A stretch of DNA of 18,034 bases, taken from an uncultured bacterium (GTDB taxonomy: Bacteria > Bdellovibrionota_C > UBA2361 > CAKMMH01). The translations under genes were made by a program, and so were the position numbers. Below are positions 3,137 to 9,957 of the stretch, in pieces; position 1 is the first letter of the stretch; each line of letters starts with the position of its first letter. The notes beneath the pieces were generated by a model. The model was not told where the DNA came from, did not search any database, and worked only from the letters and a program-made list of their open reading frames with translations. The stretch covers positions 1 to 18,034 of the forward strand of contig CAKMMH010000011.1 of the NCBI GenBank assembly GCA_927798255.1, in the 5' to 3' direction.

Positions 3137-3204
3137 TTTCAGAAAATAGGTTTCAGGGTTCGGGTCTCAGGAAACACTTGAAACCTGTTCCCTGTCACCT
3201 TACC
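3137..3204. repeat. 7-bp repeat tract that flips orientation and overlaps the dprA 3' end
   Basis: The tract uses the same heptamer as the one at 590-686. From 3137 there are five units reading NNNCAGG (TTTCAGA, AAATAGG, TTTCAGG, GTTCGGG, TCTCAGG), then AAACA. From 3177 four units read the opposite way as CCTGNNN (CTTGAAA, CCTGTTC, CCTGTCA, CCTTACC). The inversion gives the tract a loosely paired hairpin form, CAGG against CCTG. The right half runs into dprA: the stop codon (3195-3197) is the variable triplet of one heptamer, and the last residues are encoded in the next. GGGAACAGGTTTCA occurs in both tracts, on opposite strands. Confidence 0.75.
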
Positions 3205-4289
3205 ACATATTCCTCACCAGGCAGTGAATCTATATAATTTTCAGCTTGTAAATTAATAATTATTAATGGTAAATCAAGATCTATAAATTTTTCATATAAT
3301 TCACTTCGTGTAACTTTTTTTCGTTTTTTTATATATTCATAAACTGTTTTTTCAGATTCATTAGTAATGGTACTTTCAATATTATCAAGATTCATATCTT
3401 TTAAATACTCAGGATATAACTTATAAAAATCATCTATATTAGCAATAGGGATTGCTCCTTGAGTAATTAAATTATTTGAACCTTCAAATCCTTCGTCATA
3501 CACTGGGCCAAGAACAGCTAAAAGATCCCTTCCCTGTTCAAGAGCATATCTAGCTGTAGAAAGTGCACCACTTTTCATAGCAGCTTGTGCAACAATTATA
3601 ATTTTTGAAAGACCTGAGATCACTCTATTCCTATCTAAAAAATTATATGGAAGTGGCGAAGTGTCGGGTAAAAAATGACTTAATATTACCCCACCTTCTT
3701 CAATTATTTTATGTGCTAAATATTTATGCACAGATGGATAAATATAATTTACCCCGCTTCCTAAAACTGCAATTGTTGGAAATAAATTTGAAGGATTACC
3801 AAGAGCTCCTATATGAGATGCCGCATCAATCCCTTGAGCTAAACCACTAACTATACAAATGTTAGAATAACTTAAACTTTTTGCAAGCTCACTAACAAAT
3901 TTAGATTGCATCAAACAAGCCTTCCTAGACCCGACAATAGCAACCGAGTTATTATAATCATAATCCTTTTTCCATATTCCTTTATAAAATAAAACTAGTG
4001 GCGGATTAAAAATACTTTTTAATGATATTGGATAATCATTAGTACCTAATAATAAAAATTTTATCCCTTGGCTTTCCCATTTTGATATTTTATTCATTAT
4101 AGTTTCTTTAACTAATTTATTCTGAAACTTTTCAATTATCTTAGGAAAATTTTTTGAAATTAAATTTATACTATTTTCCTTTTCATAAATATTTTCATTT
4201 GATAAAAACAAACTAAACTCCCTACTTTCGCTAGGCTTTAATTCCATAGCAATTAATGATAAACATAAATAATCATAAAAATTTTTCAT
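3195..4289 (-). CDS. dprA: DNA processing protein DprA
   Basis: DprA binds incoming single-stranded DNA during natural transformation, protects it and loads RecA. The Rossmann-like core is complete; numbering is from an upstream TTG at 4301. The motifs are VAIVGSRKA (120-128), SGLAQGIDAASH (152-163), VLGSGVNYIYP (179-189), FLDRNRVISGLS (221-232), KSGALSTARYALEQGR (243-258) and EGSNNLI (273-279). A SAM-like helical region precedes it, and a winged-helix domain (about 310-368) follows, so length and layout are normal. I prefer the ATG at 4289 (364 residues); the frame opens with a TTG at 4301, and neither has a good Shine-Dalgarno. A MITE-like element separates it from the upstream phosphatase gene, and the last codons lie in the heptamer tract. 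DprA alone does not show competence, because many non-competent bacteria keep it. Confidence 0.95.
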   Translation of the reverse strand: MKNFYDYLCLSLIAMELKPSESREFSLFLSNENIYEKENSINLISKNFPKIIEKFQNKLVKETIMNKISKWESQGIKFLLLGTNDYPISLKSIFNPPLVLFYKGIWKKDYDYNNSVAIVGSRKACLMQSKFVSELAKSLSYSNICIVSGLAQGIDAASHIGALGNPSNLFPTIAVLGSGVNYIYPSVHKYLAHKIIEEGGVILSHFLPDTSPLPYNFLDRNRVISGLSKIIIVAQAAMKSGALSTARYALEQGRDLLAVLGPVYDEGFEGSNNLITQGAIPIANIDDFYKLYPEYLKDMNLDNIESTITNESEKTVYEYIKKRKKVTRSELYEKFIDLDLPLIIINLQAENYIDSLPGEEYVVR

Positions 4290-4319
4290 AATAAAAACCA
4301 ATTAATAGAAAATTAAAAT

Positions 4320-4523
4320 TAAGGAAACACTGATTAATGCAAAATTTTAGTCGACCCCTTACACGATGTTTTGAATTAATCAGTGTTTTCTTTAAATTAC
4401 TAAAAAATAAAATAGCTTCATATAAAATTCTTCGAAAAAAATATAATTTATGTTGCTATATAGGAATAGGATTTTAGATAATAGGCTTCTGCGAGATATT
4501 TTGAATTAATCAGTGTTTCCTTA
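4320..4523. mobile_element. MITE-like element with three copies of one terminal repeat
   Basis: TAAGGAAACACTGATTAAT at 4320-4338 recurs as its exact reverse complement at 4505-4523, giving 19-bp inverted ends around about 200 bp. A near-identical third end in the second orientation lies inside, at 4375-4394 (ATTAATCAGTGTTTTCTTTA). The two right-hand ends also share upstream bases: both follow an ATTTTAG about 30-35 bp earlier and both read TTTTGAATTAATC. The structure is therefore either a 75-bp element (4320-4394) plus a solo end, or one element with a duplicated end. No coding frame lies inside. It fills the gap between the start of dprA and the stop of the phosphatase gene. I see no target-site duplication and do not know the parent transposase. 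Confidence 0.6.
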
Positions 4524-4549
4524 GAAATATTATGAGTCTACCACATTAC

Positions 4550-6292
4550 TTAAGATTTGCTTACTCTTTGCTTTAATGTATTAATTTTTGCCTCAAAATC
4601 TTTTAATTTTTCTTCTTCATTATCAACTAATAATTTTGCATATTGCATTTTTAAATCAACAATTGAAAGATTAAATTGATTACTAAGCAATTTATCTTGC
4701 ATAGACTTTATTTGAATTTCATATTTAGAAATCTTATCATAAAAATAGCTCTCAACTTGCTTATATAACCTAGTTAATTTTTCTTCTTTGATTTTATTAT
4801 AATCATTTTGATTTAAATCATTATTAAGAATATCATATGAAAAACTTAAAAAATCATCTGATAATTTTTTAACATTTTCATCATTTTCTGATATCTCGCG
4901 TGCAATATCTAATAAATTCTTGTTATTATATTCTCTAATATCATTTATCTTTTCTGACAATTTATTAATTTGTGATTCTATAGCCTTATTACTATCTAAT
5001 AATATTTTTTTTTGCCTTAACAATTTTTCTTCTGATAAACTTTCTCTCTTTTCAACAATATCCAATATCTCATTATAAGCTATAATTTCTCTTTTAGAAT
5101 AATCTATAAACTTATCATTATCGTCATACTTTTTATCTTCAAAATTCAACCTAAACTTATAATCATCTTCTGTAACTTTAATATTGCCTATTTTATCCTC
5201 AAATTTATCTTCTTGAATTTGCTTAGAAAGTTTAACACTGTTATTAGGAATTACAAAAATACAACCTAAAACTATCAATACAACTAAAATAATTAAATGG
5301 CTTAATACTCTTAAATCACTACTAGACACATCAACTTTTTCATTGTTATTGTGGTCAGTAACTGTTTTATTCCATAATTTCTTATATTTGCCATCATCAC
5401 TATTTTTAAATTCCTCAAACCTTTGAGTAAGCTTATTGTAATCTATATTATTTGATATCTCTTGTGGTTTTACGACCCTTGCTTTTGATTGTTCAATTAA
5501 GCTATTTTCTTCTTCATCAGATAATATTCTTTGGTTAAATACACCTACAAGCATCGCAGTAATATTATCTATTCCACCATTATCATTAGCCTTTTTTATT
5601 AACCCTCTGACACCTTCTTTAACATCATTATTGCTTATTATTTCCATGATTTCATTATCAGAAACCATATTATATAAGCCATCTGAACATAAAATAAATC
5701 TTTCCCTATAATCTAAAAATCCGAGTCTCGTTGTTTCAATCTCAAGACTTTTTCCCTGTCCGATAGTCTTAGTAAGCATATTTGAAATGGGATGACTTTT
5801 TGCTTTTTCCTGAGATATAACACCAGATTTTATAAGCTCATTTAAAACTGTATCATCTTCTGTAATTTGACTTATCGTATCGCCAAAGATTTTATAAACT
5901 CTTGAATCACCAACATTTAAAGTCCATGAACTTTTTGGCATCACAAGTAAACTTGTTATTGTTGTACCTAGGCCTTGAACTTCTTTATGTTCCATGCCAT
6001 ATTCGAAAACTCTCTCATTAGCTTCATATACTACTTTTTTTACATCTTCAATGTCGCTTATTTTTTTACCTTTTAATTCAGAATCTATATAAGAAACCGT
6101 CATCTGGGAAGCGATTTCTCCGCCATCAGTTCCGCCCATACCATCACAAACGACATAGTATATGAAATTTTCACCATAAACGACGATAAAATTATCTTGA
6201 TTAGTTTCTCTCTTTGCGCCAATATCTGTTACTACGTAATGACCAATACGTGATAATATGTCTTTGTTAGGTTCTAATAAAGAGTTGCTCAT
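4550..6292 (-). CDS. Membrane-anchored PP2C-family protein phosphatase with coiled-coil tail
   Basis: The 580-residue protein begins with a complete PP2C/Stp1-like phosphatase domain (about 14-252). Its metal-binding motifs are TNQDNF (30-35), VVCDGMGGTDGG (47-58), GDSRVY (128-133), CSDG (202-205) and the final GGIDNIT (239-245). It should remove phosphate from Ser/Thr using two Mn/Mg ions. A linker leads to one hydrophobic segment (about 331-349) and then about 230 residues of charged, Lys/Glu/Asp/Asn-rich sequence with coiled-coil character. With a cytoplasmic phosphatase, the coiled coil would be periplasmic. A membrane-anchored phosphatase with a large outer tail resembles the PrpC/PstP idea of a partner to a Ser/Thr kinase, but that tail is unusual. 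The kinase-receiver gene 2.6 kb downstream is the natural candidate partner (inference). No clear Shine-Dalgarno precedes the ATG. Confidence 0.92.
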   Translation of the reverse strand: MSNSLLEPNKDILSRIGHYVVTDIGAKRETNQDNFIVVYGENFIYYVVCDGMGGTDGGEIASQMTVSYIDSELKGKKISDIEDVKKVVYEANERVFEYGMEHKEVQGLGTTITSLLVMPKSSWTLNVGDSRVYKIFGDTISQITEDDTVLNELIKSGVISQEKAKSHPISNMLTKTIGQGKSLEIETTRLGFLDYRERFILCSDGLYNMVSDNEIMEIISNNDVKEGVRGLIKKANDNGGIDNITAMLVGVFNQRILSDEEENSLIEQSKARVVKPQEISNNIDYNKLTQRFEEFKNSDDGKYKKLWNKTVTDHNNNEKVDVSSSDLRVLSHLIILVVLIVLGCIFVIPNNSVKLSKQIQEDKFEDKIGNIKVTEDDYKFRLNFEDKKYDDNDKFIDYSKREIIAYNEILDIVEKRESLSEEKLLRQKKILLDSNKAIESQINKLSEKINDIREYNNKNLLDIAREISENDENVKKLSDDFLSFSYDILNNDLNQNDYNKIKEEKLTRLYKQVESYFYDKISKYEIQIKSMQDKLLSNQFNLSIVDLKMQYAKLLVDNEEEKLKDFEAKINTLKQRVSKS

Positions 6293-6446: not shown

Positions 6447-7805
6447 CTACTTAACATCTCTTACGAATGGCTGAGAATTAATATAAGGTTCCCTTCGTAT
6501 TTGATCAACCATTCTAGTTGCATGTTCCCTAGTATCTTCAGGACCAGCAAGAACCCTATAATATCTCGAACCTCCAACTACTGATTGTTCAACTACCACT
6601 TTAAAACCAGACTCTCTAACTTTTCTAGATAATAACGCAGCCTCTCCCTCATTAGTTGTTGCTGCTATTTGAACATAAAATCCTCTAGGAATATGAGATG
6701 TACTTGAAGCAGTAGGTACATTTACTTCTCCCTGATTTCCTTGATTAATAGCACCTTGATACCCCATTGGTCGATTAATATCAGCTTGGTTATTATTATT
6801 TGGTAGATTGTTACCAGGAACACTATTAACACTATTTCCACTTGGCAATTTTGGTAAAATTCCACTTTGCGTATTTGGATTACTTGGCTTTTCTTGAATA
6901 TTTAAATGTTGTACCTCAGGACGCTTGATATCATTATTTGGAACAATAACATTTGTAGGCTCAAGTTTAATTTTTGTATCATTTTCATTAATAGCAATTG
7001 TTTCTATTTTTTCAACCTTTGCTTTTCCATCCTGATTTACAGGTAACTTTAAATTATTTCCATTTGGCCTCTGAACTTCAATAATCTTATTATCTTTTGC
7101 AACAATTTTTATTGAAGCTTCTTTTTCATCTATTAATTTCTGCTCCTTTGGACTATCTATCTTAGGCAAAACTGGCTTAATATCATCTTTATTAACATCT
7201 TTTTCCTTTTTTAAATGTTCATCGATTTTTTTCTTTACATCTTTAATCTCTGCTTTAATATCCTCACTCTCTGTGTCAACGCCATCTACTACTAAAGCTA
7301 CGTCCTCTTTATCTTCATCACTTCCTTTAATAATATCTTTTTTAACTTTTTGGCCATCATCACCATCTGCAAAATTGATATCTTCTACATATTCCCCGAT
7401 AGCCTTTTTATTTCCACCAACCACATCAGGTACTTCATCATTACCAAGAATATTTATTTTATCTCCTTTATCATTTTTACCATTATCTTCATTTTGATTA
7501 ATATCTTCTGCAATTTTAGCAAGTGTTGGAAGATCATTATCAAAATCTTCATTTAAACTATCTTTTTTCAATTTCTCATAAACTTGATTTACAGTTTTTT
7601 CATCAACATCATCTTTTCCTGTATCTGATAAATCAATAGGAACCTTAGCTAAATTTTCTCTACTTTCATTCATCGCATTTTCGAAACCAATTTTATTTCC
7701 GAAATAGACACCTAAATAAAACGCAAGTAACATGCACCCCATTACAATTCCACTTAGTGACACTACTTGGAACATACTCATTCTATACTCTTTAAAAGGT
7801 ACCAT
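6447..7805 (-). CDS. Single-pass membrane protein with C-terminal SPOR domain
   Basis: The protein has 452 residues. Residues 1-12 are a short cytoplasmic tail, 13-36 a transmembrane helix (VSLSGIVMGCMLLAFYLG), and 40-370 a long low-complexity region. That region is first very acidic with Lys/Asp/Glu repeats, then rich in Pro, Asn and Gln. Residues 374-450 form a SPOR domain (GFYVQIAATTNEGEAA, RKVRESGFKVVV, SRYYRVLAGPEDTREHA). SPOR domains bind denuded septal peptidoglycan, so the protein probably reaches from the inner membrane to the wall at the division site. AAGGAG lies 11 nt before the ATG. The gene has its own predicted promoter and lies 128 nt after the ArgS-like gene. The amidase two genes further upstream could generate the denuded glycan such a domain recognises (inference). 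Confidence 0.92.
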   Translation of the reverse strand: MVPFKEYRMSMFQVVSLSGIVMGCMLLAFYLGVYFGNKIGFENAMNESRENLAKVPIDLSDTGKDDVDEKTVNQVYEKLKKDSLNEDFDNDLPTLAKIAEDINQNEDNGKNDKGDKINILGNDEVPDVVGGNKKAIGEYVEDINFADGDDGQKVKKDIIKGSDEDKEDVALVVDGVDTESEDIKAEIKDVKKKIDEHLKKEKDVNKDDIKPVLPKIDSPKEQKLIDEKEASIKIVAKDNKIIEVQRPNGNNLKLPVNQDGKAKVEKIETIAINENDTKIKLEPTNVIVPNNDIKRPEVQHLNIQEKPSNPNTQSGILPKLPSGNSVNSVPGNNLPNNNNQADINRPMGYQGAINQGNQGEVNVPTASSTSHIPRGFYVQIAATTNEGEAALLSRKVRESGFKVVVEQSVVGGSRYYRVLAGPEDTREHATRMVDQIRREPYINSQPFVRDVK

Positions 7806-7933: not shown

Positions 7934-9154
7934 CTACTTTAAGAAATCTTGAAATAGGTCTAAAATAAAATTAAAGACAAACTTATCCTTAATACTAACA
8001 GTATTTGATTGAGAATCAGTAATTAACAAACCAGTATTTACCTTTGAATTATTAGTAAGTTTATAGCGAAAATTAGGACTATTTAAGACAAAATTAACTT
8101 CCCTTAAAAGATTATCTACCCCCTGAATCCATGTCCCAATATCTCCAGAAATCAAAGAGTCATACAAAGTAACCTTGAATAAATAACTTCTAAGTATTAT
8201 GTTTCTTAATTTATCATCTCTTAAAAATTCAAATTCACTTGATGAGGTATTATCAATCTTTGTAAAAAATTTGTTAATCCTATTATAGGTTAAATTTAAA
8301 AAATATATAAAATTCTCTTGAGTATTAATTCGTGAATCTTCAAAGTTTATTTCTTTAAAATCTAAATCTTTTGAAAGCATATATGTTAAATTCATAAATG
8401 TAGTGTAACTATCGATACTCTTTATAAAATCACATAGCTTATGCTCATCTTCCTTATAAACATTTCCCCAATCTTTTGAATGAAATTTAAAAACAAAATG
8501 ATTTTGTCCTTGTATTGTTTTAAAAAATTCTTTAGATAACTCCCTTTGATAATAGGTATTAGGGCCTAAAAGAGTAATAAATAAATCTTCATTGTTATTT
8601 TTAGTTATTGTATTAATTATATTAATGATATCTTTATCACTTATACATTTATTATAAACATCCTCTAATGTATTAAGAAAACTCTTATAGTCATCAAAAT
8701 TAATACAATACTGATTATTTCCTAAATATAACTTTGAATTAACATTAAAATTTTTAAATAAAATACTATTAAGAAGTCCTTTAAAAGCTAGTCTATAAAA
8801 CAAAGATTTAGAATATGTATTAAGTACAGGAACATAAACAATCGAATGATTAATTTTTACATCAGGATTCATTGGCGTTACATCTTTTAACTTAAAACTT
8901 TTAAGTCTTATATTTACATAATCCCCGACTAAAGATATATCACAATTCTCACAAGTAAAGTCCTTTGTAATATTATCAAATATTTCGTTTACATTTTTTT
9001 TATATTTTTTTGCTAATAAAATCAAAAAATCAGAATAGAAATCTCCTATTGATAAATTTAAAGAAGGTTTAAATACAATATCAATATTTGAAACATCATA
9101 AAAATTCTTTGCACTTTTTATAAGCTTATTGGTAATATCTGAAATATTTAACAT
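7934..9154 (-). CDS. ArgS-family protein lacking the catalytic signatures (pseudo-synthetase)
   Basis: The 406-residue protein keeps the outline of class I arginyl-tRNA synthetase but is 140-170 residues shorter than usual. Residues 26-92 match the ArgS N-terminal domain: GDFYSDFLILLAKKYKKN, then VGDYVNIRLKSF. Residues 103-150 align with the start of the catalytic fold, where ArgS has N-x-x-K-x-x-H-x-G-H; here the stretch reads NTYSKSLFYRLAFKG, so the HxGH ATP-binding motif is absent. I see no KMSKS-like motif. The middle is shortened, and residues 280-405 look like a DALR anticodon-binding domain (FIYFLNLTYNRINKFF, then a helical C-terminus). It therefore probably cannot activate arginine but may still bind tRNA. 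An intact frame and a good AAAGGA 6 nt before the ATG, overlapping the upstream stop, indicate an expressed protein rather than a decayed pseudogene. I cannot see whether a normal argS exists elsewhere. Confidence 0.7.
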   Translation of the reverse strand: MLNISDITNKLIKSAKNFYDVSNIDIVFKPSLNLSIGDFYSDFLILLAKKYKKNVNEIFDNITKDFTCENCDISLVGDYVNIRLKSFKLKDVTPMNPDVKINHSIVYVPVLNTYSKSLFYRLAFKGLLNSILFKNFNVNSKLYLGNNQYCINFDDYKSFLNTLEDVYNKCISDKDIINIINTITKNNNEDLFITLLGPNTYYQRELSKEFFKTIQGQNHFVFKFHSKDWGNVYKEDEHKLCDFIKSIDSYTTFMNLTYMLSKDLDFKEINFEDSRINTQENFIYFLNLTYNRINKFFTKIDNTSSSEFEFLRDDKLRNIILRSYLFKVTLYDSLISGDIGTWIQGVDNLLREVNFVLNSPNFRYKLTNNSKVNTGLLITDSQSNTVSIKDKFVFNFILDLFQDFLK

Positions 9155-9164
9155 GATTTATCCT

Positions 9165-9929
9165 TTAAATTACTGCACCAAAAAAACTTTCAAAATCTTG
9201 TAAAATTAATTCCGCATTTTGTTCATTTCTAATCTTTTCAATTTCTTTTAATATGCGACTTTTAGAAATATTATCAAGTAACTTTTTATCCCTTGCATCT
9301 TTTAAAAGCTCTTTTGTATCATTATCAAAATCTCCATTAATTTTATACTTATATCTATATCCTCTTAAAATCCTTGTTGGATCATCATAAAAACTTCTAA
9401 AGTGAAGCACTCTTAATACTCTATTTTCTAAATCTTCTAAACCTTTTTGACTATTAATGATAAACTTGCTAAGAAGTCCCTTATCTAAATTTTTTGTATC
9501 ATCATTAAAAGACTTTAAAAAGTCCTTTAGTTTAATGGCAAGAGTGTTTATACTATAATCTCTTCTTTTTAAATCCTCTAAAATATCATCTGTACTTTCA
9601 ACTTTTGGAAAAGCTCCATCTTTTTCATAGACTTCTTTTCTTAACCCTGCAAAATCAATTTGATGAATAATATTTAATGAAGGAATATCTGAAATTTTAG
9701 ATGTTAAGAAAGATTTAAACTCTGTAACTTTACCACCATATTCTTTTATAAATTTATTTACTAAATTTTTAGCATCGCCTTTTACTGCAAAATCTACATC
9801 ATTTGAACAAAACTCATTATTTATAAACCAATCTCTCAAAAATCCGCCAACAAGATAAATCTCTAGATTTCCATCGATCGAAAATTCATATATGCTGTTA
9901 AAAAAATTTTTAAACTCTTTATAGCACAT
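9165..9929 (-). CDS. Short poly(A) polymerase / CCA-adding-type nucleotidyltransferase
   Basis: This is a class II polymerase-beta-like nucleotidyltransferase, the family of tRNA CCA-adding enzymes and bacterial poly(A) polymerases. Numbered from an upstream TTG at 9935, it shows LVGGFLRDW (28-36), the metal-binding DVD (46-48), a third acidic residue D94 (HQIDFAG), RRDYSIN (124-130) and the neck motif DDPTRILRGYRY (184-195). It ends after about 256 residues, where family members usually run to 370-480, so the tail domain that holds the tRNA body is mostly absent. Substrate preference (CCA, A-only, or other) cannot be read from this. The frame opens with TTG at 9935, but the ATG at 9929 is the likelier start. 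The gap to the amidase stop is about 28 nt, and 10 nt separate it from the ArgS-like gene, so it is translated within the mutS operon. Confidence 0.85.
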   Translation of the reverse strand: MCYKEFKNFFNSIYEFSIDGNLEIYLVGGFLRDWFINNEFCSNDVDFAVKGDAKNLVNKFIKEYGGKVTEFKSFLTSKISDIPSLNIIHQIDFAGLRKEVYEKDGAFPKVESTDDILEDLKRRDYSINTLAIKLKDFLKSFNDDTKNLDKGLLSKFIINSQKGLEDLENRVLRVLHFRSFYDDPTRILRGYRYKYKINGDFDNDTKELLKDARDKKLLDNISKSRILKEIEKIRNEQNAELILQDFESFFGAVI

Positions 9930-9957
9930 TTTCAATTTTATTTATAAAAGACTAACT

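Follow-up and report, generated by a model that had tools for sequence, protein, structure and literature searches.

To our knowledge, dead or diverted relatives of the aminoacyl-tRNA synthetases mostly keep the catalytic fold. HisZ retains the fold of the catalytic domain without the tRNA-binding parts, and SLIMP derives from a class II enzyme. In the available part of PMC9437257, HisZ is a histidyl-tRNA synthetase paralog and regulatory subunit of HisG, that is, a catalytically dead relative serving another enzyme, while GluQ-RS (the catalytic core of GluRS, with the catalytic domain kept and the anticodon domain absent) and SLIMP (an insect SerRS paralog) are synthetase-derived proteins with other roles. 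Here we describe a protein derived from arginyl-tRNA synthetase (ArgRS or ArgS), encoded at 7934..9154 on the minus strand of an 18,034-nucleotide stretch of DNA, hereafter the window (GenBank assembly GCA_927798255.1, contig CAKMMH010000011.1), from an uncultured bacterium of the Bdellovibrionota_C. It belongs to a family that is the reverse of HisZ, in that the catalytic domain is lost and the tRNA-binding parts are kept. Judged from sequence, it is a dead synthetase paralog of an unusual kind, with the recognition ends kept instead of the catalytic fold.

Complete ArgS combines PF03485, PF00750 and PF05746. The family shares with it the N-terminal D-loop and C-terminal anticodon domains, in the same order, and its place ahead of a SPOR-domain gene, but differs in having no recognisable catalytic domain or HxGH motif, in its length (316–439 amino acids (aa) in uncut members, against ∼575) and in that a complete ArgS is encoded elsewhere.

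ArgRS ends and the lost catalytic domain

A single-sequence search found relatives of ∼400 aa within the order of the window genome, and the order-type profile finds the family in 21 of 28 order genomes; a 22nd match to this profile, in genome G002, is an ordinary 688-aa ArgS frame and was rejected as a member. In the rest of the class a protein of 316–368 aa, missed by the first profile, lies in the same slot between a nucleotidyltransferase (NTase) gene and a SPOR gene, and the class-type profile detects it in 14 of 17 genomes, with one copy truncated where its contig stops. What ties the two types together is the shared slot, a match to ArgRS in both cases and a direct match of the C-terminal profiles (88.7%, E 2.6e-6). 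The ArgS-like family is present in 35 of 45 class genomes, which rules out a feature peculiar to the window, and the catalytic loss is a trait of the whole family and not a one-off.

The window protein has 406 codons and starts with ATG, and AAGGA (9161..9165, minus strand), a likely ribosome-binding site, lies six bases 5' of the start; the intact frame and good ribosome-binding site of the preliminary description, which named no strand, are both borne out. Residues 1–95 (8870..9154, minus strand) correspond to the ArgRS N-terminal domain, which binds the tRNA D-loop. Pfam places PF03485 (Arg_tRNA_synt_N) at residues 8–84 (E 1.8e-5, above the curated cut-off) as its sole match in the window protein, leaving the C-terminal anticodon region undetected in the single sequence. 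The NCBIfam argS model (TIGR00456) gives 19.9 bits, well short of its cut-off of 261.65, and the protein is therefore not an argS equivalog. Pieces of the family profiles were compared by hhalign with 26 ArgS from outside the phylum. Order-type columns 1–95 match these with a probability of 97.6% (E 4e-12) and columns 251–406 with 92.5% (E 5e-7); against the class's own ArgS the corresponding values are 93.4% and 0.8%, the latter meaning undetected. The class-type profile as a whole aligns to ArgS positions 6–554 (98.4%, E 4e-15), and its ends match the outside ArgS with 97.9% and, for the C-terminal one, 96.6%, against 0.1% for its middle. In controls, which covered end pieces only and no middle pieces, the four ends of the two types reached at most 0.3% against NTase and SPOR alignments in 8/8 comparisons.

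Searches of PDB sequences at E up to 10 returned ArgRS only for both family profiles (4/4 and 11/11 matches), including 2zue for the N-terminal domain (E 1.2e-7) and 3fnr for the C-terminal region (E 1.3e-3, profile positions 270–387). PF03485 is found at E up to 0.01 in 17/32 order-type and 7/16 class-type members; evidence for the anticodon domain is weaker, with Pfam DALR_1 in 0/32 and 1/16, and no Pfam domains other than ArgRS ones occur in these 32 and 16 members. The similarity is far beyond chance and the ArgS origin of the window protein is supported. Thus the N-terminal ArgS domain was rightly recognised at the outset, while the DALR-like region claimed with it (residues 251–406, 7937..8404, minus strand, the ArgRS C-terminal DALR-type anticodon-binding region) emerges from the family profile and not from the window protein alone.

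Residues 96–250 (8405..8869, minus strand) occupy the slot of the ArgRS catalytic domain and show no similarity to ArgS (hhalign 0.4% against outside ArgS and 0.1% against class ArgS) and no HxGH. The catalytic Rossmann domain PF00750 has no Pfam match in the window protein or in the 32 and 16 family members. HxGH, which is present in 24/24 class ArgS, is absent from 31/32 order-type and 16/16 class-type rows; the sole H-x-G-H, an HRGH at residue 373 of one order-type row, lies in the C-terminal part, and 0/48 family rows have the motif at its expected place. The loss of HxGH had been noted before, together with a shortened middle; the first point stands, but the middle shows no recognisable catalytic domain at all. 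A whole-profile hhalign alignment did reach residue 216, but since pieces tested separately matched nothing, a residual catalytic domain in this interval is not claimed.

A complete ArgS of 574 aa was found on another contig of the window genome (C30), as the proposed genome search was meant to establish, and it rules out the window protein as the sole ArgS. An ArgS match occurs in 20/20 class genomes that are ≥90% complete and ≤5% contaminated (in G018 a piece only), and the ArgS family cut-off is passed in 38/45 class genomes. Synthetase homology, lost catalytic parts and a complete synthetase elsewhere in the genome together mark the protein as a dead synthetase paralog.

Distribution, selection and neighbouring genes

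Six genomes, namely G002 and five members of family f4, carry the NTase gene followed by the SPOR gene with no ArgS-like frame between them, the gaps being −4 to 391 nucleotides (nt). The remaining genomes comprise G039, with an NTase fragment and then SPOR, two of family f14 with another context, and G010, which is undecided. The ArgS-like gene of G011 is split over two contig ends (L037 and L054) by an assembly break. Further relatives come from one Bdellovibrionota bacterium and from 11 loci labelled delta proteobacterium, Deltaproteobacteria, Proteobacteria or bacterium, and the isolate names point to lakes or bays as the source of several. The phylum in the sampled data seems to consist of this class alone. 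Few names are given to family members in the sources ('hypothetical protein'), and among open-licence papers on synthetase paralogs lacking the catalytic domain, ArgRS-like proteins and Bdellovibrionota ArgRS no description was found.

Relatives of the ArgS-like protein occupy the same spot in most of the class genomes sampled, usually right behind the tRNA-tail enzyme, which suggests a protein that is being maintained, not a gene in decay. Maintenance by selection, surmised earlier from the frame, is supported by the family's presence across the class and with a pair of ArgS-like copies in G015 (dN 0.053, dS 0.55, ratio 0.097 over 394 codons), the latter a sign of purifying selection; this sole close pair for nonsynonymous to synonymous rates (dN/dS) is probably two strains in one bin, with contamination of 9%. 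Residues G37, S41, R121, W229, R292 and P360 are invariant in 32/32 order-type rows.

Downstream of the ArgS-like gene lies the SPOR-domain gene (6447..7805, minus strand; Pfam SPOR E 2.8e-11, and alignment), a neighbour as in the argS–SPOR arrangement. The spacing to SPOR is looser than that to the NTase, reaching 316 nt and, in one case, 2,044 nt, and in G037 and G038 the NTase/ArgS-like pair was found without a SPOR match. SPOR and N-acetylmuramoyl-L-alanine amidase genes flank the pair in many genomes. Outside the phylum, coordinates inspected by eye put argS ahead of a co-oriented SPOR gene in at least 24 of 80 genomes, and a script confirmed SPOR adjoining argS in 15 of those 24 and in two further genomes, in line with the argS–SPOR order that the preliminary description had called familiar in deltaproteobacterial genomes. 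Because ordinary argS outside the phylum also adjoins SPOR, the linkage to SPOR alone says little on function. Beyond SPOR and a PP2C-type phosphatase gene the window has a DprA-like gene (within 3195–6292), where many relatives have purH and purD instead, and at 689–1954 a protein kinase domain fused to a response-regulator receiver-like domain; all these names were read from sequence.

tRNA contacts, the nucleotidyltransferase and possible functions

E. coli ArgRS holds base A20 of the tRNA D-loop via F36, Q40, A78 and N84, with A20 stacked on F82, and its N84 is equivalent to Thermus N79, according to the available part of PMC8975779. Residues Y79 and N81 of the window protein align at the F82 and N84 places (codons Y79-V80-N81, 8912..8920, minus strand), the transfer of numbering following from the alignments; F36 and Q40 are not kept, being I36 and Y40 when anchored on a shared GD. 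An aromatic residue at the F82 place is kept in 19/20 order-type rows, and the A20-pocket Asn is invariant in 16/16 class-type rows, so that the A20 pocket appears to be kept in part, most clearly in the class type. Of five tRNA-Arg genes of the window genome that were read by eye, four have an A after the GG of the D-loop.

The gene upstream encodes a short class-II tRNA NTase of 256 aa (9165..9935, minus strand; Pfam PolyA_pol E 2.2e-17), the proposed partner, and its stop lies 10 bases ahead of the ArgS-like start. Among the 30 loci with upstream sequence, 29 have the ArgS-like gene within −79 to +60 nt after the NTase, measured with the starts of the longest frames. The residues of GG..RD, D.D, RRD...N and DDPTR, which we take to be the catalytic signatures, are invariant in 11/11 aligned NTase rows. 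The best NCBIfam model of the window NTase is the A-adding tRNA NTase (E 4.9e-29; 101 bits, where the cut-off is 1440), and three relatives match it with E 4.6e-39 to 5.6e-47, each far below the cut-off. The likeness to the A-adding enzymes of Aquifex and Geobacter thus concerns the partner gene only, and sets 256 aa against a model of 880 positions. Two further such enzymes, assigned from sequence, occur in the window genome: one is PcnB-like (448 aa), and the other (443 aa) is CCA/CC-adding-like with an HD part. The available part of PMC8208693 describes delta-proteobacteria in which CC addition and A addition fall to separate enzymes and which also have a poly(A) polymerase. Of the genome's 40 tRNA matches, 30 were read and gave 33 tRNA genes; 10 of these encode CCA, and CCA addition is therefore needed. 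One contig, G000:C82, has eight tRNA matches (one with a low score), and the seven tRNAs read that could be assigned to it lack an encoded CCA; it could be a phage-like tRNA array.

The body and tail of class-II NTases bind the body of the tRNA. On the C-terminal side, the NTase of the window's lineage ends ∼100 residues before most aligned order relatives, and the missing part is presumably body plus tail. Class-II enzymes consist of head, neck, body and tail, as set out in the available part of PMC3925840. Short NTases of 254–262 aa are found in the near-identical P0020 and in the next five uncut matches; four of these lie on contigs equal in length to contigs that carry ArgS-like relatives, and in the Bdellovibrionota bacterium the tags of the short NTase and the ArgS-like protein adjoin.

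The reading that we favour, tentatively, is that ArgRS tRNA-contacting ends that lost the catalytic domain are kept as a stand-alone tRNA-binding protein, which holds tRNA for the neighbouring short NTase. The ArgS-like protein would still bind tRNA through its N-terminal D-loop-binding domain and C-terminal anticodon-binding helix bundle, and would hold it while the NTase works on the 3' end. Retention of both domains and of the Asn that would face A20 suggests tRNA binding, and service to the NTase is suggested by the tight linkage across the class and the shortened NTase in the window's lineage. The repurposed tRNA-binding protein and NTase partner that the preliminary description put forward would agree with these data. 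That the two make up a split tRNA-tailing enzyme, with catalysis from the shortened NTase and the grip on elbow and anticodon from the displaced ArgRS ends, is conceivable, if somewhat doubtful. Several observations weigh against a partnership of this kind. The place of the A20-pocket Asn in 20 order-type rows holds N in 7, V in 10 and other residues in 3, and family f12 of the order has lost the Asn. Elsewhere in the class, uncut NTases measure 279–375 aa, and since this holds for most relatives, the argument that the ArgS-like protein complements a shortened enzyme is limited at most to the window's lineage. No NTase/ArgS-like fusion was met in the loci listed. Nor is co-occurrence obligatory: the NTase without an ArgS-like gene before SPOR in the six genomes above means that the enzyme does not always depend on the ArgS-like protein, and G005 (L050) keeps the ArgS-like and SPOR genes, with two PP2C-type genes after them, and lacks the adjacent NTase.

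The arrangement in G005 would suit a tRNA-binding protein with its own role apart from the NTase, for instance as a tRNA chaperone, in sensing how much tRNA-Arg is available, or as a regulator that works via tRNA. The same homology and conservation evidence supports such a role, and HisZ offers a precedent for a dead synthetase paralog that regulates (PMC9437257, available part); however, the NTase lies directly upstream in all but one of the 30 loci and Pfam shows ArgRS domains only in the 32 and 16 members, and we regard an independent role as rather doubtful. Alternatively, the ends may no longer bind tRNA, the fold being reused as a scaffold, perhaps for the membrane or cell-wall neighbours (SPOR protein and amidase) whose genes flank the pair in many genomes. 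The loss of the Asn in f12 would agree with this, but the pair persists in G037 and G038 without a SPOR match, the Asn never varies in the class type and ordinary argS outside the phylum is linked to SPOR as well, which makes a scaffold unlikely. Quite unlikely, in our judgement, is a non-catalytic partner of the working ArgS, acting as pseudo-subunit or in tRNA hand-over. It would accord with the ArgS origin and with the ArgS match in every good-quality class genome (G018 again by a piece only), but the working argS of the window genome is on another contig, the class ArgS loci examined have neither SPOR nor NTase in their short flanks, class ArgS appears to be of a deep type less similar to the ArgS-like ends, and the f4 genomes and G002 do without the ArgS-like protein. 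A decaying argS pseudogene without function, finally, is scarcely credible: the catalytic domain is lost and the gene is absent at the same place in six genomes, but intact frames and a dN/dS of 0.10 contradict decay, six residues are invariant throughout the order type, no internal stops occur in the order-profile matches listed, and in the sole flagged member (G037) the match overruns the gene's own stop by about three codons.

Origin of the slot and meaning of the family

The profile of class ArgS finds yeast ArgRS as its best PDB match (530 bits, against 424 for E. coli), and the class's working ArgS is, as far as the comparisons indicate, of a deep type. In a tree of 79 ArgS made by a quick method, a long branch with full support separates 17/17 script-confirmed argS–SPOR rows from 28/28 class ArgS, which are joined by five outsiders; the split is partly one of sampling, because most outside rows had been picked for matching the class-type profile. 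Among the class ArgS (L061–L089), 9/24 rows have M-K-T-R in what is presumably the KMSK region. The ArgS frames of family f12 are 574–617 aa long in some genomes and 718–728 aa in others, and two f4 genomes (G003 and G019) carry two ArgS.

The ArgS-like profiles score higher on outside ArgS than on class ArgS, loci not picked by score included, although the outside set is more varied and this could alone raise its profile scores. As between the original argS of the slot and a copy of the class's present argS, the profile scores favour the original. With the ArgS-like ends added, a tree of 77 rows places both ArgS-like types outside the two ArgS types, each on a very long branch, the ArgS-like class type having a support of 41; in a reduced set of 73 rows, with L166, P0016, P0011 and P0012 left out, the ArgS-like types form one side of a branch with a support of 97. 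Descent of the ends from class ArgS was not rejected by an approximately unbiased (AU) test of the 73 rows (p 0.18), and given this and the very long branches, the tree is no proof of an in-place history. A possible course of events is that an old argS ahead of SPOR was made redundant once another ArgS type took over charging, and that the displaced gene afterwards shed the catalytic domain where it stood, keeping only the parts that grip tRNA.

Most sampled genomes of the class keep tRNA-recognition ends around a missing catalytic domain, beside a tRNA 3'-end enzyme, and even without a partnership these ends constitute an un-named family. If the partnership is true, the class would have a two-part tRNA NTase, and the fate of a displaced essential gene would be traceable. 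A split enzyme would mean that the displacement was recycled in place, with the operon slot and the RNA-binding domains kept and the chemistry alone lost.
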